Assembly (NCBI GenBank): GCA_028753945.1
Contig: JAPNXP010000008.1
Location: 4,464,001-4,528,000, forward strand
Direction: 5' to 3'
DNA from: Hexactinellida sp. DTS-2022
Taxonomy: Eukaryota; Porifera; Hexactinellida
DNA length: 64,000 bases
Shown: positions 955 through 34,418 of the stretch, one piece after another
Position numbering within the stretch: the first letter of the stretch is position 1
Layout: every line of letters begins with the position of its first letter
The notes under the pieces: model-generated
The model's input: only the letters and a program-made list of their open reading frames with translations
Database searches by the model: none
Told to the model about the DNA's origin: nothing
Program-made: the position numbers and the translations under genes

Positions 955-1437
955 TTAATAGTTTGGCTGGTCATTAATCCCTTCTAACGAAAAAGCTTTT
1001 TCATAAAATAAAATTTCTGCTAAAAGTTCATTCTTTTCCACGCTATAACAATCTCTTATATTTCCAAGAATAAACATATCTGATTGGTGGAATTCTTCAC
1101 TGAAAACATCATTTCTTTCCTTCACATGTCTTACAGATTTCTTTCGTTGGACTCTCCTTTGATATTTCAAATAATTATAAGTATCTTCAGGAAGATAGTT
1201 TGATAATAGTTTTTTTACTTCACACCATTTTAAGTCTCTTAATTTCTGTAAATCGAAAAGTTCGATTACTCTTGCACCGATTAAAAGACTGAAATCTGCT
1301 TCAACCAATTCTTCCCATCTTAAAATCAAATATTCTTCTAATTTCCTTAAAATCTCGATTGTTAGAATAGAAGTTGGTTCTGATGGTTTGACTTCCTTAT
1401 TTTTAGGTTTGTCTACTGTGTTGGTGATATTACTCAT
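955..1437 (-). CDS. Maf/CNC-like bZIP-derived protein, subfamily 1
   Basis: Single-exon 160-residue protein. Seen: an N-terminal segment TSILTIEILRKLEEYL (22-37) shared with the genes at 4631 and 6167; a predicted helical segment (52-90) that I align with the Maf/CNC extended homology region; LPEDT (82-86) leading into a basic stretch QRRVQRKK (93-100); and a C-terminal coiled-coil motif VEKNELLAEILFY (133-145) common to the whole cluster. In a gapless alignment the invariant bZIP Asn is Lys99 and the invariant Arg is Glu107, so ordinary DNA contacts are not expected. The start is the ATG complement at 1435-1437. A minus-strand TATA-like sequence (about 1511-1522) lies some 75-85 nt upstream, with no other in-frame ATG between. 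Inferred role: nuclear coiled-coil protein, perhaps a dimerising regulator. Function unknown. Confidence 0.75.
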   Translation of the reverse strand: MSNITNTVDKPKNKEVKPSEPTSILTIEILRKLEEYLILRWEELVEADFSLLIGARVIELFDLQKLRDLKWCEVKKLLSNYLPEDTYNYLKYQRRVQRKKSVRHVKERNDVFSEEFHQSDMFILGNIRDCYSVEKNELLAEILFYEKAFSLEGINDQPNY

Positions 1438-2083
1438 ATTTAACTTGTATTTAGTTTATTGTTCAAGTTGTTTGTGTTTTTTGTTTGTGATAATAACTGA
1501 TTAACATTCTCTTATATACTAGTTTAAAAACCTTCCAAATGTACGGATAATGAAAGAAGGAATTCAGTTATAAAAATAGAAACTGATTATCACCTGGACT
1601 TGTAACTAGAAACAGAAAGTATTTACTTTTTATTTTGCAAATGTATCATTAGTATTCAATATAGAAAACACGACTCACAAAAAGGAGCATCTACAAAAAC
1701 TATGCTTAGTCTAAAATGACCGATACTCTCAAATAATTATATCACCAATTTAAAAAGATTGCGAGTTCCATAAAACATACGATTGACATGAAACATCATC
1801 TGAAAACAACTTCTGACCAGTAAGCCATTATTAAGAAATGTAGGTCGTTTTAACAGAGCAGGATTAAGCAATTCATAAGTCCTGACCAATATTAAACGAG
1901 GCCCAATTCCATTACGCAATTTCACGCTTTCCTCTGTAAGTCAAAATAATAATTAAAATTCAGAATTATTTTTAATAAATGGATCAATTAAAGTTGCATT
2001 GACGTATATACACGATTTACCATCTTCATACCACAGGTAATAAATTACAATAATATTTCAACAACTCAAAGAACGATAATTAT
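1438..2083. promoter_or_regulatory. Upstream region of the 955-1437 gene
   Basis: On the minus strand a TATA-like element, ctagtatataag, lies at about 1511-1522. Beyond it there is nothing recognisable up to the foldback element. The 8-bp sequence ATAATTAT at 2076-2083 is the left copy of that element's apparent target duplication. Confidence 0.45.
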
Positions 2084-3672
2084 GGGTCTGACTGAATGGT
2101 GGAAAATGGTGGAAAATGGTGGAAAATGGTGGAAAATGGTGGAAAATGGTGGAAAACATCCGAGAGTGGTGGAAAATGGTGGAAAATGGTGGAAAATGGT
2201 GGAATTTCTGAATTTTCGTCGAAATGACTGAATGGTGGAAAGTGGTGGAATTTCTAAAAATCGACTGAAAGGTGGAAAATGGTGGAAAACGACTGAATGG
2301 TGGAAAACGACTGAATGGTGGAAAATGGTGGAAAACGACTGAATGGTGGATAATGGTGGAAAACGACTGAATGGTGGAAAATGGTGGAAAACGACTGAAT
2401 GGTGGAAAATGGTGGAAAATGACTGAATGGTGGAAAATGGTGGAAAACGCCTGAATGGTGGAAAATGGTGGAAAAACGGGGGCTGACTGAATAGTGGAAT
2501 CTAGTGGAATCTTTGACTGAATAGTGGAATCGAGTGGAATTTGATTAAATTGTTAAACACTACGTATATGCTATAAGCTACGTGTGTATCATATTACGTT
2601 AATTTTCGCCCATGTAAAATTGTTTGCAATGATTGAACTAGTGTTGTGCATGAAGTGGGACAATATGATACTATATTAGTATTCTTACTAATCATCTCTA
2701 TTGAACTGCCCAATGAATACCAACTGGATTTGATAAGGAATTGTTGATAAATAATGTAATAAGATGTGTCTAAATAACATGGTAACAAAGCCTAACTAAT
2801 AAATCCTATTGTGTCACTTCAATCATTGCAAACAATTTTACATGGGCGAAAATTAACGTAATATGATACACACGTAGCTTATAGCATATACGTAGTGTTT
2901 AACAATTTAATCAAATTCCACTCGATTCCACTATTCAGTCAAAGATTCCACTAGATTCCACTATTCAGTCAGCCCCCGTTTTTCCACCATTTTCCACCAT
3001 TCAGGCGTTTTCCACCGTTTTCCACCATTTTCCACCATTCAGTCGTTTTCCACCATTTTCCACCATTCAGTCATTTTCCACCATTATCCACCATTCAGTC
3101 GTTTTCCACCATTTTCCACCATTCAGTCGTTTTCCACCATTATCCACCATTCAGTCGTTTTCCACCATTTTCCACCATTTTCCACCATTCAGTCATTTTC
3201 CACCATTTTCCACCATTCAGTCATTTTCCACCATTATCCACCATTCAGTCGTTTTCCACCATTTTCCACCATTCAGTCGTTTTCCACCATTATCCACCAT
3301 TCAGTCGTTTTCCACCATTTTCCACCATTCAGTCATTTTCCACCATTATCCACCATTCAGTCGTTTTCCACCATTTTCCACCATTTTCCACCATTTTCCA
3401 CCATTTTCCACCATTTTCCACCATTTTCCACCATTTTCCACCATTTTCCACCATTTTCCACCATTTTCCACCATTTTCCACCATTTTCCACCTTTCAGTC
3501 GATTTTTAGAAATTCCACCACTTTCCACCATTCAGTCATTTCGACGAAAATTCAGAAATTCCACCATTTTCCACCATTTTCCACCATTCAGTCAAGTAGT
3601 TTTCCACCATTTTCCACCACTCTCGGATGTTTTCCACCATTTTCCACCATTTTCCACCATTCAGTCAGACCC
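2084..3672. mobile_element. Foldback transposable element with minisatellite arms
   Basis: Two long inverted arms (2084-2637 and 2818-3672) surround a ~180-bp unique centre. The outer parts of both arms are tandem decamers of GGTGGAAAAT (or the complement) broken by CGACTGAAT units. The inner ~110 bp of each arm is a non-repetitive inverted copy. Outer ends are GGGTCTGACTGAATGG and its complement. ATAATTAT stands immediately outside both ends (2076-2083 and 3673-3680), an apparent 8-bp target duplication, though it is itself palindromic. The arms differ in length (554 versus 855 bp), which fits slippage in the decamer array. The layout matches foldback (FB-like) elements. No transposase is present, so it is non-autonomous. 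The frame reading through the decamers (Trp-Lys-Met-Val-Glu-Asn...) is a repeat artefact. Confidence 0.85.
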
Positions 3673-3680
3673 ATAATTAT

Positions 3681-4630: not shown

Positions 4631-5218
4631 ATGTCTGTAAATAATAACAACATTCAATCAGATAACGGAGTAGTTTATGAAAAAAAACCTGACGCACCAA
4701 CTTCTACAGTAGATATTCAAGTGCTATTAAGATTAGAGAAATTCTTGTATCCAATTTGGAGACAAACAGTTTTAGCAGATAGCAATAAGCTGAAAGGTAC
4801 AAATGTTATTGGCCTATTTAACCTTGAGAAATTAGTTAAGCCTAATTTATGGAAAATAAGAGGACAGCTGTCAATACTTCCAAGGGACACTTTTCTTTAT
4901 TTGATGTACCAAAGAAGGAGAGTTCAAAAGAAATTAAAGAGACAAGTTAGAGTACATTTGGATAATGTAGACAAATCTAATTTTTGTGAACTCCAAATAT
5001 TAAAACAACAGTTATTAGAAGAAAAGAGAGTCCTCTTGGAAGAAATATTTTTCTACAAACAAGAAATAGAGCATTCCTATGCTACAATACAATATCCAGA
5101 GTATTATACACAGTACCAACAATGCCAATACAATCAGCAGTGCTATAATGGCTACAACACAGAACAAATGCAGTACGCCTTTAACTACCAACCTTTTCAA
5201 GCAGCAGACCCTTACTAA
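4631..5218 (+). CDS. Maf/CNC-like bZIP-derived protein, subfamily 1, with Tyr/Gln tail
   Basis: Single-exon protein of 195 residues, paralogue of the genes at 955 and 6167. Order: low-complexity N-terminus; shared motif TSTVDIQVLLRLEKFL (24-39); EHR-like region (53-90) with LKGTNVIGLFNLEKL and LWKIRGQL; basic stretch YQRRRVQKKLKRQVR (93-107); coiled coil with LLEEKRVLLEEIFFY (118-132); then a Tyr/Gln-rich tail (138-195). Compared by eye with Maf (RELNRQLRGFSKEE...), the EHR and basic region align without gaps from Trp74 on. The invariant Asn position is Lys100 and the invariant Arg position is Val108. The tail resembles low-complexity activation or aggregation-prone segments, but that is inference. 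TATA ~65 nt upstream of the ATG. Stop TAA at 5216-5218. Confidence 0.8.
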   Translation: MSVNNNNIQSDNGVVYEKKPDAPTSTVDIQVLLRLEKFLYPIWRQTVLADSNKLKGTNVIGLFNLEKLVKPNLWKIRGQLSILPRDTFLYLMYQRRRVQKKLKRQVRVHLDNVDKSNFCELQILKQQLLEEKRVLLEEIFFYKQEIEHSYATIQYPEYYTQYQQCQYNQQCYNGYNTEQMQYAFNYQPFQAADPY

Positions 5219-5292
5219 GAACAGCATTCTGAGTGTAAAGTAATATTTGTATTTATTTCATGTCTTGTTTTACTTTTGCAGCTATTATATAC

Positions 5293-5696: not shown

Positions 5697-5874
5697 TACA
5701 GTGGATGCCGGTTATAAGCACATCGTCGGGAACTGCACTTAATGTGCTTATAATCGGCATGTTCTTATAACCGACTTAAGTTATATAGGGTATATGGCAA
5801 CCGTTTTCCAACATAGTGTGCTTATATCCGATATGTTCTTATAACCGGTGTGCTTATATCCGACATCTACTGTA
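5697..5874. repeat. Family D MITE, complete
   Basis: TA-flanked, starting CAGTGGATGCCGGTTATAAG and ending CCGACATCTACTG. The inside is built of repeated GGTTATAAG/ATATAAG units facing each other, including 'gggtatatggcaaccgttttccaacatagtg'. Non-coding, pogo-like ends. Confidence 0.85.
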
Positions 5875-6166: not shown

Positions 6167-6787
6167 ATGGCCCTACAATGTAAACCAACAGAACCATGTT
6201 CTAGCATTGATATTCAGATTCTAACTAACCTAAGCATTAAACCCTATTTAGCAAAAGATAAATATCAAGAAAGATGTACTAATAAACCAAAAGAAGCAAA
6301 ATCTACAATTGATTTTCAGACACTTTGTGAAGAGAGCATCAAACCATACTTATTACCAGATAGTTTAGAAAAAGCCAGTAAAGACAGTACTTTGTTGAAG
6401 GGAAATAAAGTAACTGACCTTTTTAACTTTGATGAGTTAATTGAGTGGAAACCAAATGAAATACAAGTTCATTTCTCAAGATACCTTCCAATGGATATCA
6501 CGGAGCACTTAGTTTACGAACGAAGGAGGGAACAGAAATTGTCTGAAAGGAAACAGAGAGAAGCGAACGAGAGGAAAGAAAAAAGACACTTAAATGAACT
6601 GGAAAGAGAGAGAACAGAATTGTTAAGCGAAAAGAGTGCTCTTATTTGCGAAATAGATAACTACAGATATAAATTTGGAGAATACAGGCCTAACTATGTA
6701 GGACAAGGAAACAGAATGCAAGAATATATTCAGCCTATTTACCCTAATGATATTCCCCACCAACACTACATGCAAATGAATGAGTAG
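6167..6787 (+). CDS. Maf/CNC-like bZIP-derived protein, subfamily 1, duplicated N-terminal motif
   Basis: Single-exon 206-residue paralogue of 955 and 4631. The N-terminal motif found once in the relatives occurs twice here: KPTEPCSSIDIQIL...SIKPYL (6-28) and KPKEAKSTIDFQTL...SIKPYL (40-62). Then come an EHR-like segment (78-117; LLKGNKVTDLFNFDELIEW, YLPMD), a basic region YERRREQKLSERKQR (117-131) and a strongly charged coiled coil to ~165 with LLSEKSALICEIDNY (152-166), then a Pro/Tyr/Gln tail. The invariant-Asn position is Lys124 and the invariant-Arg position is Glu132. Basic plus coiled-coil character is the most bZIP-like of subfamily 1. A MITE starts one base after the TAG stop. Confidence 0.8.
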   Translation: MALQCKPTEPCSSIDIQILTNLSIKPYLAKDKYQERCTNKPKEAKSTIDFQTLCEESIKPYLLPDSLEKASKDSTLLKGNKVTDLFNFDELIEWKPNEIQVHFSRYLPMDITEHLVYERRREQKLSERKQREANERKEKRHLNELERERTELLSEKSALICEIDNYRYKFGEYRPNYVGQGNRMQEYIQPIYPNDIPHQHYMQMNE

Positions 6788-6788
6788 A

Positions 6789-7190: not shown

Positions 7191-7250
7191 GTATAAAAAC
7201 ATCCATGGTTAAATAATACAAATTGTTAATATTGTAATATACCCACAGAC

Positions 7251-7421: not shown

Positions 7422-8767
7422 CAATACACTGCCACATACTGTGTAATATACCCATTGGATTTGGTGCTACACTTATATGAGGAAATGTGTTTATTTGTTC
7501 AATAATATTTGAAAAATAATGGCTACAGACAAGAGTTTCATAATAATTCCAGTAATAAAACTCTTGCTTTATCATCCAGTAAATTTATTCAAAGGAGTAT
7601 ATCTATAATTATCGACTACAAAAAACAATTTCACTTGAAAATAGAATTAATACGAAATCATTTCAGTTCGAGTTTGTAATTAAAAGCGACTTTTTAGTAA
7701 CTTTCCAGTATTGTGAATTGAAATTATCACATAATTACGACATTTTAATATCTAGAAGGTAATCAAACTTTGAATCAATAGAATACAAATAACTTCATTT
7801 TTAACAAGTGGTTACTAATGAAAGAGTTTTGAATAAATTAAAAAGTGTTGTAATTAATGTATTATATTTAGTGGTTCAGCATTAGAATATTGTTAATAAT
7901 TTATAATTCATATATTTGGTATAATACGTAGTATGTATACATACTTTATTGTTAGTTAAGTTGGTTAACAAGTCAAGGTTAATACATTGTAAAATCCATT
8001 TACTTTCAATAGAAGTACAAAACATATGGTAATTGCAGTATACGTACGTACAATAAAATCCAAAAAAGCTGACTTACAAAACAATCAGTTTCGATGTAGT
8101 ATATGTTTTATAATCAAATTATTAATATTTACGTTACTATTTTCTATTTGCAGTATTTGCATGTAATGTGTAATTTAAGAAAACTAATGGATTCATCAAA
8201 ATGCAAAATTTACACCTGATCTTTGCATCCTAAATTTTTAGTTTTAATAGATTTATATTGTTAATTTGTTCCAACTCTATAATATTAGTAAATATACTAC
8301 CAATTTACCATTGGGATTAAATTGTATGTAATGGCGGTTCAAATGTTACATAACGCTTCCAAGGGAGAGTTTAACCAATGTTTGACATACGATCTTTACT
8401 GTAGTACAAAATTGCCAAAATGAGTGATATAAGAAGGGGTGTCTAATTTAGGGAATTTTGAGTTACATGACGTTTGAACGCCCCTATTATACATAGTTTA
8501 CAGTGCAATGTAAATTAAACAGAATATATTTATTACAGTCGAAACCGGGATTTTCTAACTAACTATTTATTCTAAATGTGTAATAAATTCCAATTTAGTT
8601 GTATTTTCGATCGGTTTATTCTAACTATCGGATTTTTCTTACTTTATTTACATGCAAATAACTGGTTTTAAAAAATCATCAAAGTTGCCCTGAAAATACA
8701 TGGTGTAAACTGAAGCATTATGTACTTATCTTTGCTTAGTTAATATTAAATTTGAACCAAGGATATA

Positions 8768-8952
8768 TACAGTAGAACCTCGTTAATACGAACACCAACG
8801 GACGGTAAATATTTGTTTTTATCCGCAGTTCGTATTAACTGGAGTAATACCCATTGAATAGCCATTGTAGGGACCTGATTTTGTGGAACTGTTTGTTCGT
8901 CTTAACCGGAAATTCGTATTAACCGTGTTCGTAGTAACGAGGTTCTACTGTA
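8768..8952. repeat. Family B MITE (pogo-like), complete
   Basis: TA-flanked, CAGTAGAACCTCGTTAATAC at the left and GTAACGAGGTTCTACTG at the right, ~185 bp. The internal sequence is related to the ends ('gtattaaccgg', 'ttcgtattaac'). This is the commonest element type in the window. Confidence 0.9.
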
Positions 8953-10463: not shown

Positions 10464-11024
10464 ATGTCTTCTAACTCCATTAGTGAGCCAATTTTCAATT
10501 GCATTAATGAAAAAAGTTATTTATTAACTTTTGAATTACGAAATAAACATAATTTAAGTTTAATTCATCTGTTAAAACATGACCCTGCTAGTACCCTAAA
10601 AATAACAAGTTGTGGAAAATACTTACAATTTGAAATTGACATGAATAAAGTTGTTAGTGTTACAAAGTTTAAATTGTTGGCCATCATTAAATTTACCCCC
10701 GAAAACAAATCTGAACTTCAAAATATTCGTCTCAACAAAAATGGTGTCCCTGGTCACCAAAATTCAGGAAAATTAAATACTAACTTTAAATTTGACACCT
10801 TATACGATTGGCTCAAGGACGGCAAGACAAGAGCTTCAAAAAATCAGTCTAGTAAACTAAAAAGGGAGATACAATCACTGGAATCAGTAAAAATAAAACT
10901 TGAGGATAAAGTACACTTACTTATTTCTGAAATTAACAACTATTACCAAGCTGAACTTGAAGAATATAACAGGCAAAACATGAAGAAGATATATCCAAGT
11001 GAGATATTAATCTTGTATAATTAA
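10464..11024 (+). CDS. bZIP-derived protein, subfamily 3 (G-x7-G), probably spliced at its 3' end
   Basis: As one exon it encodes 186 residues. Order: LTFELRNKHNLSLIHLLK-type N-terminal module (21-60) shared with 12410 and 33840; EHR-like helix FTPENKSELQNIRL (77-90); Gly94-x7-Gly102 exactly where bZIP has Asn-x7-Arg; the subfamily signature (K/I)T-x-F-x-F-x-TLYDWLKDG (104-120); a basic stretch KTRASKNQSSKLKR (121-134); and a coiled coil ending LEDKVHLLISEINNY (146-160). A good donor (AA|gtgaga after 10998) and acceptor (ttttctag before 11071) suggest an alternative C-terminus of about 29 residues (TSQGDNYTLEPFNQQP...) ending with TAA at 11157-11159, plus a 3'-UTR intron (11179-11276). TATA ~65 nt upstream. 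Function unknown. Confidence 0.75.
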   Translation: MSSNSISEPIFNCINEKSYLLTFELRNKHNLSLIHLLKHDPASTLKITSCGKYLQFEIDMNKVVSVTKFKLLAIIKFTPENKSELQNIRLNKNGVPGHQNSGKLNTNFKFDTLYDWLKDGKTRASKNQSSKLKREIQSLESVKIKLEDKVHLLISEINNYYQAELEEYNRQNMKKIYPSEILILYN

Positions 11025-12409
11025 ATTTGCTCTTTACATAATTTGTTGACAATTGTTTTCTATTTTCTAGCTAGTCAAGGTGACAACTATACACTAGAAC
11101 CTTTTAATCAGCAACCAATCAGTCAGTGTTGTGTCCAAGGAATCGATTTCTGCTATTAAATTGATCAAGCAATTCATGGTAAGTCATTAGTAAATGTATG
11201 TAGTTTCAATTGAACAATAGTACATGTATTACAAATAAATTTATAATAAACTTAATCGGTTAATTTATTTATTTAGATTTCACAACATTTGAAAGACACT
11301 CCCAACATATTTACCAACATCAACATCAAAATATGGACTTATTTAAGTAAACTGAATTAAGTTTTGAAAAAAAGTGTCTAGCTTTTGGTATATTTGTTTA
11401 ATTTGAACTTAAGATATTTGTATTGTATAATTAATATTTTAGTTATTAGTTTGTATATATTAGAGTTTGTATATTATTATCAATTAAATAGTCTGTTGTA
11501 AAGTAATCCAAGCTTTAATTGTGTGATTGACACATGGGTTATTAATAAGGGGTGAAACATTAGCATAAATACAACAATAATAAACACAAGTTGAATGAAT
11601 ACATACGGTCGACTCCGCTTAATAGAGTCACATAGGGATTTAGGTTGCTTTGACCCAATTAAGCGGAGAAATCTATTAACCGAAATATTTTAAGCCAAAC
11701 TGTCATTCCGTCCTATAAATCCTGTGAAATTTTGACCCAATTAAGCGGAGAAATCTATTAACCGAAATATTTTAAGCCAAACTGTCATTCCGTCCTATAA
11801 ATCCTGTGAAATTTTGACCCCATTAAGCGGATAAATCTATTAACCGGTGGCTCTATTAAGCGGAGTTGACTGACATGTAATTCTTAGTGTAATTAGTCAA
11901 GATAAATAACTCTTCAAAAATCTTATCTTAACTTATTCAAAAATCGTATCTTAATCTTATTTCTAGAAAAACAGATACGGTATAATTAAATAATCGAAAT
12001 CTAGTATATAATTTCAAGAAAATATACTATATTTATTCATTTTTTCGGGTGGAAGGTCATTAATTATTCAAGAATTATTAATTTAAGAGATAATTTAATA
12101 CCCTAGAATTATTATAATTAATTAATACACTGTCAATAAGTCAGACTCTGTTTGATCTTTTTAGATATTTAGTCACCAAATAGAGATTGACGTAATAGCC
12201 ATTAATTAAGTTGTCTGTTTCAATTCACATGACAAGAAGAACAGAAAACATATCTAAATAAGGAAAAAAATATTCCCAAGGTGTATAAAGGTGGTTTAGG
12301 GAAATACCGGAAATGTGGAATAAGCTTTAAACTGAACGAGACTTGAATATAAATACGTGTGCAAACTGACATATACATACTACACATAACTCACACCAAT
12401 AATAACAAC
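11025..12409. other. Downstream exons of the 10464 gene, MITE and promoter of the 12410 gene
   Basis: 11071-11178 and the stretch from 11277 look like 3' exons of the 10464 gene. A MITE occupies 11604-11872. The TATA-like aatataaatacg at about 12346-12357 lies ~60 nt before the ATG of the next gene. No other gene seen. Confidence 0.45.
11604..11872. repeat. Family A MITE with internal tandem duplication
   Basis: Ends as in other family A copies (GGTCGACTCCGCTTAATAGA at the left, CTCTATTAAGCGGAGTTGACTG at the right). The middle carries two head-to-tail copies of an ~86-bp segment beginning 'gacccaattaagcggagaaa' and ending 'cctgtgaaatttt', which enlarges the element. Confidence 0.85.
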
Positions 12410-12985
12410 ATGGGAAAATGTAAATCTGATATATATTCATTTGAAGTTAAACTGAGGAGTAACAAACACGGTAATAAATTCCTTGAAATTTATGGAAAAG
12501 TCTTGAAAATCGTAGCAGAAAATAAAAAACTGAAATTAGAAATAGATCTCAATAAATACAACAATAAATACAGCGATAATAAAGTGAGGGAAAACAAAGC
12601 TTTCGATTGGCTCCTACATCTAGCTTTTGAAATAATTCCAAAAAATGCAATCAAGGAAGAAAGAACTCGATTCTACAGAAGAGTTTGGAAAAGGAATCAT
12701 GACAAGAAAATGTCCAATATTTATTCACTACAAACCCGACAGGAATATCAACACAGTAATATGGGTCCTCTAGAAGTTACAACAATTGAAATGCAACAGC
12801 CTTACATTCTGGAACAACAACAACAACAACAGGTTCATTATGAAGATAATTACCCTGAGGAAGAATATTATTATTATTATCCATATGAACAACAACAACA
12901 ACAATATGAATATTTGTCCGCTCAAGAATATTACCAACAACGATTTGGAATTTTCAATGGCTACTACTGTCCTATTTATTATTGA
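12410..12985 (+). CDS. Diverged subfamily-3 relative with Gln/Tyr-rich tail
   Basis: Start chosen at the ATG at 12410 (191 residues). The frame is open 17 codons further up but without an ATG, and the TATA box at ~12346 leaves a ~30-nt leader. The N-terminus (YSFEVKLRSNKHGNKFLEIY... LKLEIDLNKYNN) matches the N-terminal module of the 10464 protein (LTFELRNKHN... LQFEIDMNKV), and KAFDWL recalls TLYDWL. The EHR helix and G-x7-G segment are missing between them. After a basic stretch (EERTRFYRRVWKRNHDKK) the coiled coil is absent and is replaced by a Gln/Tyr/Glu-rich tail with QQQQQ runs encoded by CAA repeats. Membership of the superfamily is therefore less certain. Function unknown. Confidence 0.6.
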   Translation: MGKCKSDIYSFEVKLRSNKHGNKFLEIYGKVLKIVAENKKLKLEIDLNKYNNKYSDNKVRENKAFDWLLHLAFEIIPKNAIKEERTRFYRRVWKRNHDKKMSNIYSLQTRQEYQHSNMGPLEVTTIEMQQPYILEQQQQQQVHYEDNYPEEEYYYYYPYEQQQQQYEYLSAQEYYQQRFGIFNGYYCPIYY

Positions 12986-17069: not shown

Positions 17070-17420
17070 ACTGGAAGTCCTATAGCTAAATGAAAGCGAT
17101 ATTCTTAATACTTATAAGCTGGATCAATTCTATTTTGCATATGAATCACTACTACTTAGTACTGTCCAAAAATTAATTGATCAAACATGAAATCAAGGAA
17201 AAAAATTTCGGTGAGCCATTAACCTTAAGTGAGAGATCTAGAGACTAGAAAAATAAACACATAACAAATGATATTAAAACAAAGTATGTAGTTAATGGAG
17301 AGGAAAACTGAAATCCAAAATATCAAAATAAAAGAGAGACTGCCTCAAACAAGAAAATGAAAATCTCGAACGGAGATTTGCGAATATAAACAGTTATTAA
17401 TAGAATCTGTCCCATTAATT
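17070..17420 (+). pseudogene. Decayed copy of a subfamily-2 bZIP-derived gene
   Basis: Two blocks match the 15252 gene. 17073-17105 ('ggaagtcctatagctaaatg...') corresponds to its EHR-end codons. 17222-17410 ('gagagatctagagactagaaaaataaacacataac...', '...caaacaagaaaatgaaaatctcgaac') corresponds to its basic region and coiled coil up to 'cagttatta'. About 110 unrelated bases separate the blocks, several frame changes and stops occur, and no 5' part is visible. It shows the cluster grew by local duplication with loss. Confidence 0.75.
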
Positions 17421-19248: not shown

Positions 19249-21600
19249 CACCTGGAATAATAACAAATACACACAGTTAATTATTCCGCTAATAGGATAT
19301 CGGTTAATCAGACAAATATCCAGCAACTAATGTGTTTATATTAAGCGCAATATACTATACTGCAAACTACATTATTAACGGTAAATGCATCCATGGCATA
19401 GGTTTATACTGTTCTCCGTAAAGCTAAATATTTATTCACTATCTTTTGTATTTATTTATCTTAGCTAATTTATATTAGTATTGTTAATACAGCGCTAAAT
19501 TATTAAAATAATTATTGTGTCCCAAATTACTATACTATGAATGAAATAAGTTATTTTCTATTAGATTCTTATAATAAGAAATTAACTATCTAAATTATTA
19601 GTTACATTAAGGAAACATACATAGTTTGAAGAAGCACGAGTTCCATTACAAAAATTTAAAGTCATTTTGGAATTATTGTCGATTAAGACTATATAATTCC
19701 GGACTTGATTGGAAGTACAGGACTTTTTTGGAAATTTTGGCCTAATAGAGTCAACAAAATAGGTCATTTCTATTGAATTTAAATTCCAATATGGAAGACA
19801 ATTATTACGGTATATTCCACACGATTTCTTTATAATGATCATAAGGAAGTAATAATGTAATACACTTATTCATAAATTTATTCTGGCACAAACTACATTT
19901 TAGCTTATGGGTCTTTTATGAATCAAAATTGTTAGAGCTGTAATAAGATACACAATTTAAGACAAACCACATTTTAACTTTGGAAAACGAATATCTGTAG
20001 ATATAAGGTTTCTCCTTAATTAATTGTAGTCAAATTCCTGCACTATTTAACTAACAACCTTTAATCCCAAAGGAATATTTGTCCAATACAGAATTATATT
20101 TGTTAATATAATTGTAGAATAACTGGCTAGTAAATTACTGATATGTATTATTTATAACTAATAAATAATAATATTTATACCGGAACTAAAATATCCTAAA
20201 TTCTAAGTGTTATTGAACAAACTTATTGTGTCATTAAATAAAATAGAAACATCGAAAATCCAGGAAAATTATCCAATAATATATAATGTTTTTTGGCTCA
20301 ATTGTGGTTGTGAATAAATTTACAAACTGGGTAATTTAATGTAAACGCTTTGTTGCGTACTATATTACCCAGTAATTTCCAGTAAAAATTAGAATTTGCT
20401 TAACATATGCCACTCTTGTGAGAGTATGAATAATAAGTAGCACTTTGTTATTGGAACAGTTGCAATTCTAAATTGGATTATCAAGTAGATTGAGAGAATA
20501 AGAAAACGAGCCAATTTCGACTTAGTATTCTAAATTAAATACTGTTAAACCTAATCAACCAAAAATATATACTTTCAATAAGATAATTATGTAAATTATA
20601 ACGTTAATAATCTCGACTCATTGCTAGTTTTGAGACAAAATGTATGGAGCAAAATTAATGTTCCAGAAAAAACCTGTGAAAATTACATTTTCTTACATAT
20701 ATGTTAGTTTTCAAAGTAGAATAAGTCAGGAAGGTAAATTTTGAAAAAGTGTGATTAGAACTGGGCCACTATACTATAGTATAGTCGGCACAGTAATAAC
20801 TTAATTGAATGGATAATTTGAGACGATATATCAAATTTAACATTCTTAAGATAACATTGGTTGATAGGATATTATTACTAATAAGGTTATATGAATTTTG
20901 AATAATAAGGAAAAATCAATCGATAATAATAATTAGAAAAGAAACCATTTTTGATAACTTATATAAATAATTGCTAAAGTTTATTGCTATTTGCTCAGTA
21001 TAAATTTGATATTCTACTTAGTAGAAATGTATAATATGCACGTTCACAAATAATTTAAATCATTTCCTAATTTGAATTGGCAAATTTTAACTAATTAAAT
21101 TCTCACTGAAAATTGTATAAATGCATTAATTAAAATTCTAAAGTAAGCATTGTGGCTACAAAAGATAAATCTTATCGTAAAGGTTAATTAATAAAAATTA
21201 TAATTGTGCTAGCTATATCTTTAATAGGAATATGGTTGTATAGAAATAAAATCCTAAAGAGTATAAGATTACACATTTTAAGTTGATTTTAAACTAATTA
21301 ATTGATTTATTTGGCATGAATAAAACTTCATATTTTGCTAATTTTTGCTAATTAAAATTCTAGGTATCTCGAAACGTGAATAACTTTTAATATGTAAAGG
21401 ATCTAAAAAATTGGAAATTCATAAATTTTTATAACAGTTAATTCATGAGATGTTTCAATAGAAATAAGTATGAACCATGATATAGTAATTATGCACCATA
21501 TACTAGATAAATTTTGCTATTATTTAGGGAATTTATAACTACTAGTTATTGAAATATATATAAACAAATGACTGAATTAAATAATTTAAATTGTAATCTA
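19249..21600. promoter_or_regulatory. Intergenic region and promoter of the 21601 gene
   Basis: No gene or MITE with clear ends found over 2.3 kb of A+T-rich DNA. An 18-bp near-palindrome (actatactatagtatagt) lies at about 20770-20787. A strong TATA box, TATATATAAA, is at 21555-21564. Confidence 0.45.
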
Positions 21601-22950
21601 ATGGATTTCTCATCTAAGAAAATCAATGATCTACTCAAGCAATATAAATCAAAACAGTTTAAGGGATGGGATAAAATTTCTAAAGGAATAAGTAAATCGA
21701 GAATTTTTGTATCAAATTCTACTGCTAGTAGAGGAAAGTCCTTCTTAATGAGTGAATTAAAAACGGATTGGTTCATGCAAACACCAGACTATTCTAGTAA
21801 AATATACTATTTAGTTTGTAACGTGAGTGATTTGGAAAAGGAAAGCTTATCATTTTGGGAAAATTTTAGGGACAATATTTATTGGACGGAAATTATCCAA
21901 TTCTATGACGGGAAAATGGAATTGAATATTCCATATTTGTATGAGAAAACACTAGAAGATCTAGAAATTAGAAAAACAATGAAAAGACACTTCGATCAAG
22001 CACATAATATTGGAATTGAATACAAATGTGAATTACCATCTGAATTTGATAAGGCCTTACACAAATACATAAAATGTCTCAGTAAACGTAAATCTGATTT
22101 GTTAAAGAAGATAAACAGAATGACAGTAAAAAGCTTGGGAAATGACCTTTCTCCAGAAACAGAATCTGAATTCCAATCCAACCTAGATTTGTTAGAATCG
22201 CCAGATCAAGATGTATTTAATGAATATCCAACTCAATGGGAAAATGCAACTGGTGGACAAATAGAAAATATTCCAATTAATGATGATTCAATAATTGAAG
22301 ATATTGAAATGGAAGAAATTCGAATGCCACCAAAACAAATAAACATACAAAAGTTAATGGAATATCAAACTCAACATGGCTTTGTCAACTGGAGCGACAT
22401 AATCTCACAACTCTCACAACACTTCCAAATAATCGATGATTCTGAAGAAATGAAGAAAAAACTCATCAAATTACTGAAAAATAAATGGTTTATAAACAAT
22501 AGAGATATTGAACTAGAAAGCAACACGGTTTGTTACTTCGTCGATGAAGAAACAATTCTAGAAAATTGGTGGCAATCGGGTAACGGTGCGATACAATTTG
22601 CAGAAATTTCGAACGGGGAATTGAGGATAAATATTCCTAAATTGTTTCTACAAAACAAAGAAAAGAAGAGTGAAGTTAAAAGGAAATCAGAAAACCTATT
22701 TTCTGAAGAATATTCTCAAATAATTGATTCAATGAATATTCAATCTACCAAGAAAAGCATCGACTCATTACTCAAAACTTACATAAAGCGGTTATTCAAG
22801 AGGAAAAATGATTTCGTAAACTCAATAATTAAGGAAGCGATTCCATTTGAAAACGAAGATACATTAACGGCATCCTACCAACCTATTCCCGTACAAATTA
22901 TAACTCCTGTACAAATAGTATACATTACAAGTTACGTGCAAATTAACTAG
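21601..22950 (+). CDS. Uncharacterised protein with two copies of a ~165-residue domain
   Basis: Single-exon protein, paralogue of the gene at 27169. The frame also has an ATG at 21568, but that lies only 13 nt downstream of the start of a TATA box (21555-21564) and so probably before the transcription start. The ATG at 21601 (449 residues) is preferred. Two tandem modules (about 5-165 and 245-430 from the preferred start) share: Leu-x2-Tyr/Gln...F-x2-W-x2-I; a (L/M)-x2-LK-x2-WF motif; an NIP-x-L strand; and a C-terminal basic helix Y-(I/L)-K-x-L-(S/F)-KRK-x-D(L/F). An acidic, Pro-containing linker joins them. No known domain recognised. The paired helical/basic architecture suggests nucleic acid or chromatin binding, but this is only inference. 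It sits inside the bZIP-derived cluster and has the same core promoter type. Confidence 0.7.
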   Translation: MDFSSKKINDLLKQYKSKQFKGWDKISKGISKSRIFVSNSTASRGKSFLMSELKTDWFMQTPDYSSKIYYLVCNVSDLEKESLSFWENFRDNIYWTEIIQFYDGKMELNIPYLYEKTLEDLEIRKTMKRHFDQAHNIGIEYKCELPSEFDKALHKYIKCLSKRKSDLLKKINRMTVKSLGNDLSPETESEFQSNLDLLESPDQDVFNEYPTQWENATGGQIENIPINDDSIIEDIEMEEIRMPPKQINIQKLMEYQTQHGFVNWSDIISQLSQHFQIIDDSEEMKKKLIKLLKNKWFINNRDIELESNTVCYFVDEETILENWWQSGNGAIQFAEISNGELRINIPKLFLQNKEKKSEVKRKSENLFSEEYSQIIDSMNIQSTKKSIDSLLKTYIKRLFKRKNDFVNSIIKEAIPFENEDTLTASYQPIPVQIITPVQIVYITSYVQIN

Positions 22951-24338: not shown

Positions 24339-24761
24339 ATGCAACAAAATTTGAGAAATCCATTCAACGATGACAGGTTCACCTTAGAAATTCCAAAAAG
24401 CGAGATTAAAAGAATTGGGAAATTAATATTCCTGAAAAGAGGGTATACTGTATATACTCCTGAAAATATTGATAGGGAATTCGTAGTGCAACTAACGAGA
24501 GGGTGTTTCAGTGTAACAATAATGACAGTAGGATTAAGCTTGGGGGAAAAACAAATAGTTAAGAAGGAAAGAGAGAGGGAAATTAGAAAAAGAAACACCT
24601 GCATATCAAGAAATAATGAAAGAAATAAGTGTAAAAATGAAGAATTAGAACTGGAACAGTTGAGTTTAGTGAAAAAAGAGTTAGAAAATGAGAAGGAAAA
24701 ACTACACAGGGAAATAAATGGATTCAAAGCTAATATTATGGGGATCGAAGCACAAAAATAA
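24339..24761 (+). CDS. Maf/CNC-like bZIP-derived protein, subfamily 2
   Basis: Single-exon protein of 140 residues. FTLEIPKSEIKRIGKLIFLK (14-33) and PENIDREFVVQLTRGCF (41-57) match the N-terminal and EHR-like parts of 18772. LSLGEKQIVKKEREREIRK (66-84) and RNTCISRNNERNK (85-97) form the basic region, with Arg83 at the invariant-Asn position and Arg91 at the invariant-Arg position. A highly charged coiled coil follows (98-130), ending LENEKEKLHREINGF. The basic and coiled-coil halves are contiguous, as in a true bZIP. A long minus-strand frame over the same bases is a shadow of this gene. TATA ~65 nt upstream. Confidence 0.78.
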   Translation: MQQNLRNPFNDDRFTLEIPKSEIKRIGKLIFLKRGYTVYTPENIDREFVVQLTRGCFSVTIMTVGLSLGEKQIVKKEREREIRKRNTCISRNNERNKCKNEELELEQLSLVKKELENEKEKLHREINGFKANIMGIEAQK

Positions 24762-26484: not shown

Positions 26485-27168
26485 GATTGCTGGAAATATA
26501 TTTCTAAAATGTATGTCCTCAAAGAACACGAAACGAGAGTGAAAATTCAGACTTTCGAAGTTTCTAAAATGTGTCCAGGGAAATGAACCTATGTCCAAGG
26601 AATTTTTGACAAACGTCCAAGGATTTTCAAGGAATTTCCAAGGAATTTCCGACTATGTTGTAGGTTCAGCTGTGGTACAAATACGGGCTAGAAAGAAAAT
26701 TTATTTATTGGCAAGTTTTTTTTTTCTTAACCACAGTGTCAGGAAATTCCTTGGCTCAGAAATTTGCAATTCTACCTTTTAATAAATCCGTCATGTAGTT
26801 CAATCACTTTCAAGTAGTCCATTATTAACTAAATTAAATGTTTAATAAAACTAATCAATTGCTTAATAACTGTTTTAGTAGTAAAATATACTTGATCCTA
26901 TATCAAGATAATATTACCAAATTCCATTGTTATGGCTTAATGTAGAAATACGTATTTAATTACAAGAACTATATAGGATACCAATTAAGATCTGCTGATA
27001 AAGCTAATATGAAATAAAATTTAAGTGATCGGTCGAATTGGTAGTAGAAAATATAAAAATATAACTAAATTTACAGTAATCGAAGAGTAGATTTTACCCG
27101 ACTGTTTTCAATTTTCATATAAAAATGAATTCAAGAAAAAATATTGTATCTTGAAAATAAATTCAAAA

Positions 27169-28446
27169 ATGAACTTCAGAAATAACAGTATTAAATTACC
27201 AATAATTTCTAACAAATTATTGAATGAATATGAAAAGAATCATCCATTTAAAGGATGGTCTCTAATACGAAAACTTGTCTTACAAAATTCGGAACAGAGT
27301 GGAAAAACTGGATCATCAAAATTCAATTTAATGAAAACTCTAAAAAACTACATGTTTATCATGGAATCTGATTACGAAAATAATTCCTATATTTTCGAAA
27401 TATCTGGTATTTCAATTGAGGATCTTAACCTTTGGAAAGAAGACAGAAAATTGAATCAAAAGATGATTTTTCAAATTGGAAACGGTATGACAAAGTTTAG
27501 CATTCCGTATTTACATGAAAAGAATGCCTTCAATCACATAAAGATGAAGGAAATTAAAGAAAGTTTGAAAAAAATAATTGATCAAGAAACCAAGATGGGA
27601 GAATTTTCAAATGAATTATATCGCTATGTCAAGTGCCTGAGTAAACGCAAAGCTGATTTCATAATCAAGATACAAGGGTACTGTAACAAGGATTCCAAAA
27701 ATAAAAGAATAAAAAAACCTAAAATATCAGATTTGGAAAACTATGAAGGCGAATTTAACGAGGAAGAAGAACTAAAGTTTTCAAAACAAAATGATGAATT
27801 GATTGAGGAACAAAATTATAATCTACCTTTTGAATATCTTACTCAAGCGATAATAGTGGATTACCAAAAATACCACCCTTTCCAGAATTGGAGTGAAATA
27901 ATAAGTGTCTTACAAACTTTCAAAAACAATTATTTGACAAAGAGAAAACTTATGCAAGCTTTGAAAAATGATTGGTTTGTAGAGCCAACGGATTCAATTG
28001 CACCAAATAACACTATTTGTTATAAAGTGGCACCAAATATCGATTTAGAACCTAATTGGAATTATTTTGCTACAATCTGCAATGATGAACTTGAAATAAA
28101 TATTCCTAACTTATTTATCCAAACAAAGGAGATCAAGAGCAAAGTGAAACAGTGGTTATCACTCAAAATATCGGATTACAAACTATGCCCTATCGAAGCG
28201 AGATATCTCCTAACTGCAGAGCATAACTTAGATTCATTACTTACTTTATATTTAAAGCGGCTAAGTAAAAGGAAGAATGACTTCATAACTTCAATTTTTC
28301 AGAAAGCAACAATGAAAGCTCAACAAGATGATTATCCAGATGAGCATATACCTACTATAGAATATCAGCCGTATCAACCAATCATATTTTATTGTTTTGT
28401 CCCACAACCGTTTATGCTAATTTCTAACCAACCAGATTCAAGTTAA
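27169..28446 (+). CDS. Uncharacterised protein with two copies of a ~165-residue domain (paralogue of 21601)
   Basis: Single-exon protein of 425 residues from the ATG at 27169. Six further upstream codons are open but lack an ATG. Module 1 (about 10-160): LLNEYEKNHPFKGWSLI, LMKTLKNYMF, FSIPYLHEK, LYRYVKCLSKRKADFI. Module 2 (about 220-395): DYQKYHPFQNWSEII, LMQALKNDWF, INIPNLFIQTKE, LTLYLKRLSKRKNDFI. The second modules of this and the 21601 protein resemble each other more than the two modules within a protein, so the internal duplication predates the gene duplication. No known domain recognised. TATA ~50 nt upstream gives a short leader. It shares the cluster's intronless, TATA-driven style. 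Confidence 0.72.
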   Translation: MNFRNNSIKLPIISNKLLNEYEKNHPFKGWSLIRKLVLQNSEQSGKTGSSKFNLMKTLKNYMFIMESDYENNSYIFEISGISIEDLNLWKEDRKLNQKMIFQIGNGMTKFSIPYLHEKNAFNHIKMKEIKESLKKIIDQETKMGEFSNELYRYVKCLSKRKADFIIKIQGYCNKDSKNKRIKKPKISDLENYEGEFNEEEELKFSKQNDELIEEQNYNLPFEYLTQAIIVDYQKYHPFQNWSEIISVLQTFKNNYLTKRKLMQALKNDWFVEPTDSIAPNNTICYKVAPNIDLEPNWNYFATICNDELEINIPNLFIQTKEIKSKVKQWLSLKISDYKLCPIEARYLLTAEHNLDSLLTLYLKRLSKRKNDFITSIFQKATMKAQQDDYPDEHIPTIEYQPYQPIIFYCFVPQPFMLISNQPDSS

Positions 28447-29058: not shown

Positions 29059-29703
29059 TTAACTTTCAATATACTGGAATTTGCATGCAGGTTGTAAAGC
29101 AGTAAAATTCAAAGATTTCATTTGTGAGCCAAAATTAAATAAGTAAGGCATATTTAATACACCTTGGTCTTCATAGAAAATTATTTCTCTTTTTAGTTGA
29201 TTTTGTACTTCCTTTAAATAATTTCGTTCATTCTTAAGAAATTCAATTTCAATAAAAAGATCTTTTGACTCCCTCCGTTTACTCTTAATCGAACTTGATT
29301 TTATAAATCGTTTTCTTCCATCACGAATCCAATCATATAGAGTTTTGAAAGTAAATTCAGTGTTTATACTACCAACATTATTACTAGCCGGTTTGCCACT
29401 CCTCTTATTTCTGATTTCTTTCAGGCAATCAATTGCATCGGATAAAAACAGAAATTTCGATAATTCTATTTCAAACTCAGTATTGGGAGCGTATTTGAGC
29501 TTGCTTTTATCCATTTGGTTTATATTAACAACAATTTGTAGAAAATCTTCATTAGGTGAGGGTAGTATTCTGAAAGCATGATCAGAGCTCATTATTTCAA
29601 TTGCTCTTTTAGATTGCGAATTTTCTTTTATTTGGAATATTATTTTTGTTGAATCTTCACCCAAAACTTTAAAAGTTTGGGAATTTGTTGCATAATTATT
29701 CAT
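29059..29703 (-). CDS. bZIP-derived protein, subfamily 3 (G-x7-G)
   Basis: Single-exon protein of 214 residues, close paralogue of 30799. N-terminal module TFKVLGEDSTKIIFQIKEN...KRAIEIM (10-38); EHR-like helix FLSDAIDCLKEIRNKRSG (86-103) lining up with Maf FSKEEVIRLKQKRR...; Gly103-x7-Gly111 in place of Asn-x7-Arg; INTEFTFKTLYDWIRDGRKR (113-132); basic stretch FIKSSSIKSKRRESK (133-147); coiled coil with LKEVQNQLKREIIFY (163-177); then a 37-residue unique tail. The Gly pair at the exact positions of the two DNA-contact residues is conserved in four paralogues. Minus-strand TATA (tatataaatag, about 29741-29751) ~45 nt upstream. Function unknown. Confidence 0.78.
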   Translation of the reverse strand: MNNYATNSQTFKVLGEDSTKIIFQIKENSQSKRAIEIMSSDHAFRILPSPNEDFLQIVVNINQMDKSKLKYAPNTEFEIELSKFLFLSDAIDCLKEIRNKRSGKPASNNVGSINTEFTFKTLYDWIRDGRKRFIKSSSIKSKRRESKDLFIEIEFLKNERNYLKEVQNQLKREIIFYEDQGVLNMPYLFNFGSQMKSLNFTALQPACKFQYIES

Positions 29704-30798: not shown

Positions 30799-31356
30799 TC
30801 ACTGTGTAGGTAGTTTAGATAAGGCATACTGATAGGAAGTTATTTCTTTATAGAGATCTTGTTTTTCTATTATTAGCAATTCCTTCATATGTTTGAGATC
30901 CTCAATTTCTTCAACAAAGCGCCTTGAATTATCCCGTATAGTTTTGATAGATTTTGATTTGGTAAAGCGAACTCTGGCATCAATAATCCAATCATAAAGT
31001 GTTGTGAAATTAAAATCAGTTTTTATCCTACCAATGTTTTTCCCAGCTAATTTTCCTTTTCTATTTTCGCGAATTATTTTCAAAATCGTAATTGCTTCAA
31101 CTGAAAATTCGAATTTTTGCATTTCTTTCGCAAATACTGAATTTGGAGAATATTTTACTCTGCTATTGCCCATTAGGGAAATGTTAACCATAACCTGAAT
31201 TGTATTTCTATCAGGCAAAGGTAGAATACTAAAAGCAGGGTTAGCGCGAAATATCTCAATAGCTCTCTTAGACTGTTCATTTTGTTGAATTTCAAATGAA
31301 ATTGCATTCGGGCTTTCAAGTAAAACTATGAAAGTTTGTATGTTTTTTATCGCCAT
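30799..31356 (-). CDS. bZIP-derived protein, subfamily 3 (G-x7-G)
   Basis: Paralogue of 29059; 185 residues from the preferred start. The frame has an earlier ATG at 31372-31374, but a minus-strand TATA box (31387-31396) lies only 13 nt before it, so that ATG is probably upstream of the transcript. The ATG at 31354-31356 (MAIKNIQTF...) also aligns best with 29059. Numbering from the longer frame: EHR-like helix FSVEAITILKIIRENRKGK (90-108), a near match to Maf FSKEEVIRLKQKRRTLKNR; Gly107-x7-Gly115; TLYDWIIDARVRF (125-137); basic KSKSIKTIRDNSRR; and a coiled coil ending LIIEKQDLYKEITSY (167-181). KGKLAGKN (106-113) closely recalls CNC KNKVAAQN. Function unknown. Confidence 0.78.
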   Translation of the reverse strand: MAIKNIQTFIVLLESPNAISFEIQQNEQSKRAIEIFRANPAFSILPLPDRNTIQVMVNISLMGNSRVKYSPNSVFAKEMQKFEFSVEAITILKIIRENRKGKLAGKNIGRIKTDFNFTTLYDWIIDARVRFTKSKSIKTIRDNSRRFVEEIEDLKHMKELLIIEKQDLYKEITSYQYALSKLPTQ

Positions 31357-31385
31357 TTGTTTGTATTTTCTCATTCCACATTTTC

Positions 31386-31397
31386 ATTTATATATAC
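31386..31397 (-). promoter_or_regulatory. TATA box of the 30799 gene
   Basis: Minus-strand TATATATAAA (31387-31396). Its position decides the start: an ATG 13 nt away would fall before the usual transcription start ~30 nt downstream. Confidence 0.55.
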
Positions 31398-32764: not shown

Positions 32765-33249
32765 TGTAGACTGTCTACAGTTATTTCTAAATGTAACAAT
32801 AATTCTCAAATTTAGTACATAATTATTCCGTTATACCAATAACCATCAGATATGGTACTGAAAGTTGTGCAATCGATAATAAATTTAATTATAGCATTAT
32901 TAAATTAAGTTAAAATTCCCTAAATAATTATATTGATTGATCGCATAATTAACAGGAAAGTAGTAAATATCTACAAAGGAATTATAAGTCAGTTATACTA
33001 GCTAATTAATTTGCATAACAAGGTTATATTATACCCAAATAAGTAATATTTGAACTGAAAGAGATTACTACCGAATAAGACAGAAATATTATGTATGGCC
33101 ATTTTGTGGAATTTAGAACTTAATGGCTAATTTTAGGAATAATATTGCTCTAATGCAAGTTAGTATTAATTTATAAGCTATATTAAGAATAAGCATTCAA
33201 TAGAATTGAATATAATCCTCCAACTTTACAGCTTATAAGAATATAACAA

Positions 33250-33426
33250 TACAGTAGATGTCGGATATAAGCACACCGGTTATAAGAACATATCGGATAT
33301 AAGAACACTATGTTGGAAAACGGTTGCTATGTCCCTATATAATTAATGTCGGTTATAAGAACATACCGGTTATAAGCTTATTAAGTGCAATTCCCGATAA
33401 TGTGCTTATAACCGGAATCCAATGTA
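33250..33426. repeat. Family D MITE, complete
   Basis: TACAGTAGATGTCGGATATAAG at the left and 'gtgcttataaccggaatccaatgta' at the right, with the full 'ctatgttggaaaacggttgctatgtccctatat' core. Confidence 0.8.
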
Positions 33427-33839
33427 GCAATAGAGGTAAGTAAACCGTCATACAACAGAACTAATAAATTTATAGCAATCGTTCCATTTAATACATATCA
33501 AAAAGAGCCAAAATCAAAATGCAAAGATAAATAAACAATGAGCATTTGCACATTACAAATAATAACTAAATTACAAGCGAAATTAAATTCAAATTATTAA
33601 TTCCAGTTATTGAAGCTTCAGAGGTTCCTAAAAGATGTAAATAATTAATTTAATTATACAATTATAATGTTCAGCTTTTAAGAATAATCGTTTGAAACAT
33701 TTGAAAATCCCATTAATGCAACTACAGCAAATAAATAGATTTTATTAATAAACTTACTAATGTGAAAGATTGAATCAATTATTGTGAAATTGTTCTTCAA
33801 TAATTTGTAGCTGCAACACCTTAAAAAGATAAGATTTTG

Positions 33840-34418
33840 TTAATAAAAGAAAAGAAAAATGTTGGAAAATGAGCCAAACTTACACATTCCTGAAAGTTGT
33901 AATTTATAAAAATATATTTCCTCAATTAAATTTTGTTTTTCTTCCAAAAGATAACATTTCAAAGAATTGAGAGAAAGTATAGTTTTCAAACCATTTCGTT
34001 TTGTCCTTATCGAAATAGATTTTGTAGATCTTGTTCTACCATCCTTCAACCAATCATACAAAGAACTAAACTTAAAATCAGTTTTTATTCTGCCAGATTT
34101 ATCTCGACCAGTTGACCCATTTCTTTTGTTACGAATATTTCGCAAAACATTATTTTCCAAACTTGTAAAATCATAATCCGCCAATTGTTTAAATTTAGTA
34201 ATTCTCCTAACTTTATGCATATTAACCTCAAATCGAATCCAGTTAACATTATAACACGTTACTTTTGTAGAAGAATCGCTTTTTAACAAATTAATAGCTT
34301 TACTACTGATTTTATTGTTGGGAATTTCAAATTCGAGCGAACCAGATAATTCATTAATACATTTGAAAACTAATACTGGGTTTTCCCCTGAATTTGTTGA
34401 AGAAATACAGTTAGTCAT
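33840..34418 (-). CDS. bZIP-derived protein, subfamily 3 (G-x7-G), likely spliced 3' end
   Basis: As one exon, 192 residues. N-terminal module SGSLEFEIPNNKISSKAINLL (25-45) and IRFEVNMHKV (61-70) shared with 10464; EHR-like FTSLENNVLRNIRNKRNG (84-101); Gly101-x7-Gly109; IKTDFKFSSLYDWLKDGRTR (111-130); basic STKSISIRTKR (131-141); coiled coil ending LLEEKQNLIEEIYFY (157-171). After LQLSGM a strong donor (T|gtaagt, exon end 33884) and a pyrimidine-rich acceptor (ttgcag, exon start 33810) suggest a 73-nt intron, giving the C-terminus SGMSTNY instead of the hydrophobic read-through tail CKFGSFSNIFLFFY. A second small intron may follow in the 3' UTR. TATA (about 34467-34479) ~55 nt upstream. Confidence 0.77.
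   Translation of the reverse strand: MTNCISSTNSGENPVLVFKCINELSGSLEFEIPNNKISSKAINLLKSDSSTKVTCYNVNWIRFEVNMHKVRRITKFKQLADYDFTSLENNVLRNIRNKRNGSTGRDKSGRIKTDFKFSSLYDWLKDGRTRSTKSISIRTKRNGLKTILSLNSLKCYLLEEKQNLIEEIYFYKLQLSGMCKFGSFSNIFLFFY

Follow-up and report, generated by a model that had tools for sequence, protein, structure and literature searches.

Described relatives of the family

The asparagine of the basic region is near-universal in basic leucine zipper (bZIP) proteins, and its position normally reads the letters of the DNA. Here, a family of bZIP-like genes was analyzed that lies in the 33-kb span from position 955 to 34,418 of a 64,000-nucleotide stretch (the window) of contig JAPNXP010000008.1 (assembly GCA_028753945.1). 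The family consists of eleven related open reading frames (ORFs) of 129–214 amino acids without visible introns and one decayed copy, and the asparagine is replaced in all eleven proteins when they are read in gapless register. The genes are named by their start positions and fall into three subfamilies (A, B, and C; Table 1), which were distinguished by alignment and BLAST. The preferred reading, to which we give a probability of about 0.7, is that the family descends from CNC bZIP proteins and has a dimerizing regulatory role.

The CNC bZIPs (NRF2, NF-E2 p45, BACH1, and SKN-1) share with the family the extended homology region (EHR) or CNC helices, the equivalent of Arg502 (NRF2 numbering), the gapless succession of EHR, basic region, and zipper in which subfamily B matches NRF2, and a zipper with Lys at a and Glu at g positions. 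The family differs from them in the replacement of Asn507 in all eleven proteins, in never having Ala510 and Ala511 together, in the absence of Cys514 from every member, in having Arg515 in B only, and in the 20–28 extra residues before the zipper of C; its proteins are also short and carry no recognized regulatory domain. The Maf proteins (MafG and MafB) likewise have an EHR followed by a basic region and a zipper, and their shortened EHR spacing recurs in A, but they score below the CNC proteins, their Tyr at the Ala510 position is found in none of the eleven, and here too the asparagine is replaced in the family. According to the accessible text of PMC9756947, Asn507 of NRF2 contacts a flanking purine via water, and the substitutions R502M and R504M lower DNA affinity more than 30-fold, for which its authors suggest a dominant-negative effect.

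Expanded bZIPs without the asparagine have been described in the oomycete Phytophthora sojae, where, in the accessible text (PMC4046829), the residue is substituted in more than 30% of 45 bZIP candidates, classes with Cys, Arg, or Val in its place were expanded by duplication, and no extra functional domain was predicted for the substituted proteins, one PAS protein excepted. Its C-R, R-R, and V-R classes resemble the present family in their duplication-driven expansion and in the replaced asparagine (by Arg in one class), and they keep the Arg of the N-x7-R motif, as subfamily B does. They differ in having no CNC/EHR region in the text available, in that some of them pass standard bZIP domain screens, which none of the family members does, and in coming from an oomycete, not an animal. 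The sequence-only reading, an earlier note on this DNA, knew of no such described family. As regards expanded, asparagine-substituted bZIPs, this has to be given up; as regards an animal CNC protein with a replaced asparagine, it stands, none being found among the literature matches listed, as far as their accessible text goes. The CNC-derived set without the asparagine is thus a variant and not a new category. In its accessible part, a survey that included three sponges describes no such family and does not contain the word CNC (PMC4736632). Another, with Amphimedon among its species, gives one or two CNC relatives per species for several invertebrates and states that CNC expansion appears only in vertebrates (PMC6213907, accessible text).

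Profile and fold evidence

A profile of the four B proteins was searched against 177,635 PDB sequences and retrieved NRF2 first (E 3e-4, gapless from EHR to zipper), followed by mutant NRF2 (6.6e-4), BACH1 (0.0031), and vimentin (0.0066). Fos-type and ATF4 zippers came far below the CNC proteins, and the matches listed included no Jun. With the profile of all eleven proteins, BACH1 (0.0028) and then NRF2 (0.0076) were on top. Because coiled coils inflate profile-search scores, fragments with the coil left out (EHR+basic) were also searched, and the EHR+basic profile of all eleven placed NF-E2 first in PDB (E 0.0049), the next, unrelated match being at 0.87 and BACH1 at 3.5.

In the reverse direction, a hidden Markov model (HMM) of NRF2, NF-E2, BACH1, MafG, and MafB was run against the 244 six-frame stop-to-stop ORFs of at least 50 amino acids. 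Ranks 1–10 were taken by ten of the eleven family members, 15252 being the best (E 4.7e-7) and 4631 being missed; the best reversed ORF had E 0.68. When the model also included the four B proteins, ranks 5–11 went to the seven proteins of A and C, which were outside it (E 2.6e-7 to 0.052), against 0.73 for the next ORF and 0.099 for the best reversed one. At E 0.052, 955 is weak alone, though tied to 4631 by blastp (E 4e-19). Two variants were weaker: the HMM of the three CNC proteins gave the family at ranks 1–7 and a noise ORF at rank 8 (best reversed ORF 0.28; 955 not in the best 13 rows), and the EHR+basic-only HMM gave it at ranks 1–5 with noise ORFs at ranks 6–9 and four members not in the best 16 rows. 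An alignment sets a TxxEIxxxG-like segment of B on the CNC N-terminal-helix motif RDExRAKAL, as a placement only.

Aligned by hhalign to the five CNC/Maf proteins, the EHR+basic fragments gave P values of 4e-8 (all eleven), 7.6e-6 (C), 1.6e-4 (B), and 0.0023 (A), which are somewhat generous, as the fragment borders were fixed after the first CNC matches. In each of the four sets, none of 200 column permutations reached the real score, narrowly so in A (18.2 against 16.7 for the best permuted one), and reversed columns gave P 0.18–0.55. The EHR/CNC helices that a CNC bZIP requires before its basic region are therefore present, most weakly in A alone. Between the subfamilies, the EHR+basic fragments of B and C matched at P 0.0015, and the whole proteins gave 3.7e-6 (B–C), 1.1e-4 (A–C), and 3.3e-4 (A–B; coil only).

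AlphaFold models were made for two of the eleven proteins, 13995 (B) and 29059 (C). The 13995 model (four-sequence alignment; mean predicted local distance difference test score [pLDDT] 75.8, predicted template-modeling score [pTM] 0.49) has short helices, one of them at residues 15–26, and then a single helix at 67–128 in which the basic region is continuous with the zipper. Among its 21 Foldseek matches in PDB, the top seven were CNC chains (NRF2 five times, NF-E2, and SKN-1, the last at 1.4 Å over 46 columns), with E 0.4–2, none significant, and probabilities of 0.66–0.94; the model is not independent of the sequence, and the CNC ranking is nonetheless specific. For 13995, the structural comparison proposed by the sequence-only reading thus leans toward CNC, though weakly. 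In the 29059 model (pLDDT 74.3, pTM 0.59), a beta-beta-alpha-beta-beta part is followed by short helices, a loop, and a coil helix at 122–179; its helix is interrupted at 100–120, with pLDDT below 50 at residues 103–114. The beta-beta-alpha-beta-beta part, predicted for residues 11–60 before the EHR, had weak and mixed structural matches, and nothing convincing was seen among the best 50 of this model's 667 matches in PDB or among the best 50 of its 773 matches in a viral fold library.

Besides the generous P-values and the Foldseek significance, several results weigh against CNC descent. SKN-1 (0.61), MafG (0.8), and MafB (2.0) ranked below epsin-5 (0.03) and vimentin (0.15) in the PDB search with all eleven proteins. 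Taken singly, neither the B nor the A profile of EHR+basic retrieved a CNC protein from PDB, the whole C profile gave six weak, mostly coil matches there and no CNC protein, and the whole A profile gave Fos only (E 0.88 and above). No CNC chain was among the best 50 of 667 PDB matches of the 29059 model. The EHR+basic comparisons A–B and A–C both gave P 0.54, so the tie of A to B and C rests on the coil and on their common CNC likeness. The match to Pfam bZIP models looked for in the sequence-only reading did not appear: none of these models, bZIP_Maf and bZIP_1 included, was among the matches with E of 10 or less that were listed for the eleven proteins in a scan whose HMMER filters drop many weak matches, and four consensus strings (with X or profile letters) also had no Pfam bZIP match, while the NRF2 control scored 63.6 bits.

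On balance, the likeness to CNC/Maf proteins is greater than to generic coiled coils and persists once the coil is left out, and the descent of the eleven genes from CNC/Maf bZIP proteins is supported. The Maf/CNC origin put forward from the sequence therefore holds as to descent, with the affinity being stronger to CNC (NRF2, NF-E2, BACH1, and SKN-1) than to Maf, as ranked by the PDB profile of all eleven.

Basic region, zipper, and gene cluster

NRF2 numbering was mapped onto the family through a gapless register set by hand. The Asn507 position is then Lys in four proteins, Arg in three, and Gly in four (Table 1), as had been read from the letters for all eleven. Single-protein HMMER alignments to the CNC/Maf model agree in seven of the eleven (955, 4631, 13995, 15252, 18772, 29059, and 30799), shift via a small insertion to Arg in 6167 and to Lys in 24339, and end before the column in 10464 and 33840; Asn occurs in none of the nine that reach it. 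Arg502 is kept in all eleven and is the sole invariant column of the EHR+basic alignment. Arg515 is kept in all four B proteins and in none of the seven of A and C, and Ala510-Ala511 is Asn/Ser-Thr in B. The gapless alignment claimed earlier applies to the basic region of all eleven; in the EHR upstream of its position 1, gaps are needed in A (1–2 residues, as in Maf), 10464, and 33840.

The reference zipper leucine lies 52–60 residues beyond the Asn position in C, compared with 28–32 in A and B and 25 in NRF2; one heptad of the gap to NRF2 depends on which leucine is chosen. Relative to the 32 residues of B, C has 20–28 more, and this extra stretch holds a conserved block, LYDW[IL]xD[GA][RK]xR. 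The contiguous helix-basic-coil half described earlier is hence found in A and B and not in C. An alternative register of C, in which LYDWIRDGRKR forms the basic helix and Lys falls on the Asn position, was not supported (hhalign P 0.25 against 7.6e-6 for the gapless one); the whole-protein A–C comparison does align the segments of that register. From the extra residues and the helix break in the one C model, Gly for Asn in C would reflect a basic region cut off from the zipper, rather than a new reader of DNA.

The d positions of the zipper are Leu-Leu-Leu-Tyr/Phe in ten of the eleven proteins (955 has Tyr at the second). Two successive a positions are Lys or Arg in nine, followed by Ile at the next in all eleven, and the matching g positions are Glu at the first (nine of eleven) and Glu or Asp at the second (all eleven). 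The zippers of NRF2 and BACH1 carry the same pattern of Glu with Lys/Arg. The phase is that of NRF2 in 955, 15252, 18772, and 24339 and is shifted by four residues in 4631, 6167, and 13995. Charged a positions are said to drive heterodimer formation in Arabidopsis bZIPs (PMC6213907, accessible text); because the family combines such residues with matching g positions, its zipper probably favors heterodimers, the partner being a Maf-like protein, another bZIP, or a further family member.

All eleven ORFs were found where the sequence-only reading had placed intact genes; its pseudogene came with no stated position, and a decayed B-like copy lies at 17229–17399. On both strands of positions 1–35,000, there were 15 ORFs starting with ATG and at least 129 amino acids long, eleven of them family genes, whereas 200 second-order Markov sequences averaged 0.045 and never had more than 2. 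An 8-mer common to the upstream regions did not exceed the null expectation.

Table 1. Members of the asparagine-replaced family, with the position, strand, and main properties of each feature
Feature	Position	Strand	Properties
Subfamily A gene, 160 aa	955..1437	-	EHR+basic 1102-1260; Lys at Asn position
Subfamily A gene, 195 aa	4631..5218	+	EHR+basic 4811-4969; Lys at Asn position; Tyr/Gln-rich tail
Subfamily A gene, 206 aa	6167..6787	+	EHR+basic 6419-6577; Lys at Asn position (HMMER register: Arg)
Subfamily C gene, 186 aa	10464..11024	+	EHR+basic 10626-10784; Gly at Asn position
Subfamily B gene, 129 aa	13995..14384	-	EHR+basic 14100-14258; Lys at Asn position; modeled fold matches CNC
Subfamily B gene, 191 aa	15252..15827	+	EHR+basic 15540-15698; Arg at Asn position; best single CNC/Maf HMM match
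Decayed B-like copy	17229..17399	+	tblastn match to 15252 (E 0.002); none of the three forward frames of 17101-17460 is free of stops
Subfamily B gene, 158 aa	18772..19248	+	EHR+basic 18973-19131; Arg at Asn position
Subfamily B gene, 140 aa	24339..24761	+	EHR+basic 24468-24626; Arg at Asn position (HMMER register: Lys)
Subfamily C gene, 214 aa	29059..29703	-	EHR+basic 29356-29514; Gly at Asn position
Insertion-like stretch of ~28 residues that separates basic region from coil in 29059	29311..29394	-	Spacing 60 against 32 in three B genes, and alignment; exact ends are approximate, being inferred
Subfamily C gene, 191 aa	30799..31374	-	EHR+basic 31015-31173; Gly at Asn position
Subfamily C gene, 192 aa	33840..34418	-	EHR+basic 34077-34235; Gly at Asn position

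The window is AT-rich (GC 27–37% in 4-kb steps), and no tRNA was found in it by ARAGORN with the bacterial code. Within the cluster, an ORF at 12359–12985 (+) has an N-terminal part like that of 10464 (blastp E ~0.01) and a Gln/Tyr-rich tail, with no family coil. Two proteins at 21568–22950 (+) and 27151–28446 (+) are 37% identical when aligned; by eye, each has two internal repeats ending in an SKRKxDF-like motif, and they had no Pfam match above cut-off. A viral origin was considered and rejected, as searches of viral contigs with C, A, 15252, and the 21568/27169 pair turned up no relative; in prokaryote genomes, no relative was found for C or for an NRF2 query. The family thus had no relative beyond the window in the collections searched, which included no eukaryotic one.

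A large fold-back array of TTTTCCACCA-type units at ~2090–3670, with 212-nt arms that are 100% complementary, looks like a foldback-type mobile element or satellite. Short dispersed repeat families of the CCGCTTAATAGAG, GCCGGTTATAAGCAC, and TTAATACGAAC types occur throughout the window (for example, at 562–747, 5697–5834, 8760–8950, 11649–11846, and 61117–61477) and by eye resemble miniature inverted-repeat transposable elements. Beyond the cluster, one unbroken ORF at 35612–38686 (-) codes for a filamin-type protein of 1024 amino acids with two CH and eight filamin stretches, which suggests that the DNA is from an animal or a close relative. Adjoining ORFs in different frames at 44634–46538 (+), of which the final one matches NHL weakly and under the cut-off, may belong to a TRIM-NHL-type gene that has introns or is broken.

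Proposed role and alternative explanations

In the proposed explanation, an ancestral CNC-type bZIP transcription factor would have been duplicated locally, in a genome that is probably an animal's, and its copies would have diverged. Their sequences show that they retain EHR-like helices, the Arg502 equivalent, a positive basic stretch, and a short zipper and that the base-contacting asparagine is lost. With the continuous basic helix of its model and Arg515, B probably grips DNA and may read an altered half-site; taken alone, this reading of B has a little less than an even chance, and it overlaps with the dominant-negative alternative discussed below. C, with its basic region split from the zipper, would probably no longer read a half-site or hold DNA in the bZIP manner and would act as a dimerizer that takes partners off canonical sites, and A would be intermediate between B and C. 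An inhibitory role of the family is plausible by analogy, because a dominant-negative effect was suggested for the Arg502 and Arg504 mutants of NRF2 (PMC9756947, accessible text).

The eleven proteins could instead be unrelated short coiled-coil proteins with a basic patch, their bZIP likeness being a convergence of charge and heptads. Vimentin and other coils do stand directly below NRF2 and BACH1 in the B search, the C profile alone has weak, mostly coil matches, single proteins have no Pfam bZIP match, and the coil-free profiles of B alone and A alone find no CNC protein in PDB. Such convergence is nevertheless very improbable given that the coil-free profile of all eleven has NF-E2 as its first PDB match and an hhalign P of 4e-8 with 0 of 200 permutations reaching it, that the B search ranks CNC proteins well above Fos-type and ATF4 zippers, with no Jun among the matches listed, and that Foldseek ranks CNC chains first for 13995. 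About as improbable is a cluster of duplicates that are all in decay and serve no function today. One clear pseudogene, the low identity between members (25–48%), and the repeats all around would fit it, but the fifteen long open frames, eleven of them of the family, compare with a Markov mean of 0.045, and the zipper motif and Arg502 are conserved across all eleven. The dN/dS ratio (nonsynonymous to synonymous substitution rates) also speaks against decay, being 0.33–0.53 in the six unsaturated of eight gene pairs, a rough estimate, since dS exceeds 1 in six pairs and is saturated in two.

Slightly more credit, though still little, is due to the idea that these are CNC-type bZIPs in which the asparagine is retained, displaced by a small indel, and DNA binding is ordinary. 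In 13995, an Asn lies one residue upstream and would give the classical N-x7-R, the other three B proteins have one three residues downstream, and HMMER does shift the register by small indels in 6167 and 24339. B would, however, need two different shifts, and the gapless register is the one that HMMER picks when the B profile is aligned to NRF2 and when 13995, 15252, and 18772 are aligned to the CNC/Maf model; it also lines up a Glu and a Thr that are invariant in all four B paralogues, and 0 of 9 HMMER alignments reaching the column show Asn. A considerably stronger contender, yet one we regard as short of probable, is that specific DNA binding is gone from all members, B too, and that they act as dominant-negative partners for bZIP proteins such as the small Mafs, which for A and C overlaps with the preferred reading. 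The replacement of Asn507 in 11 of 11, the lack of any member with both Ala510 and Ala511, the separation of the C basic region from the zipper, and the dominant negatives suggested for a mutated phosphate-contacting Arg of NRF2 (PMC9756947, accessible text) agree with it; Arg502 in all members, and Arg515 with a common [NS]-T motif in the four B proteins, suggest instead a maintained contact surface.

Within the preferred reading of CNC descent with a dimerizing regulatory role, a more detailed version is offered tentatively. In an animal lineage, a CNC bZIP may have been rebuilt into a local multigene set of partners, in which one class, with Arg or Lys for Asn, would read a new half-site, and another would have gained the LYDW[IL]xD[GA][RK]xR module between basic region and zipper, together with a beta-alpha-beta front, as an uncoupled dimerizer with its own contact surface. 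If the genome is that of an invertebrate, the cluster would be a CNC expansion outside vertebrates, contrary to the statement in the accessible text of PMC6213907. The eleven natural CNC derivatives, with Lys, Arg, or Gly for Asn and with the basic region in frame with the zipper or uncoupled from it, make up a series for studying how DNA reading by bZIPs may change or be switched off while dimerization stays.

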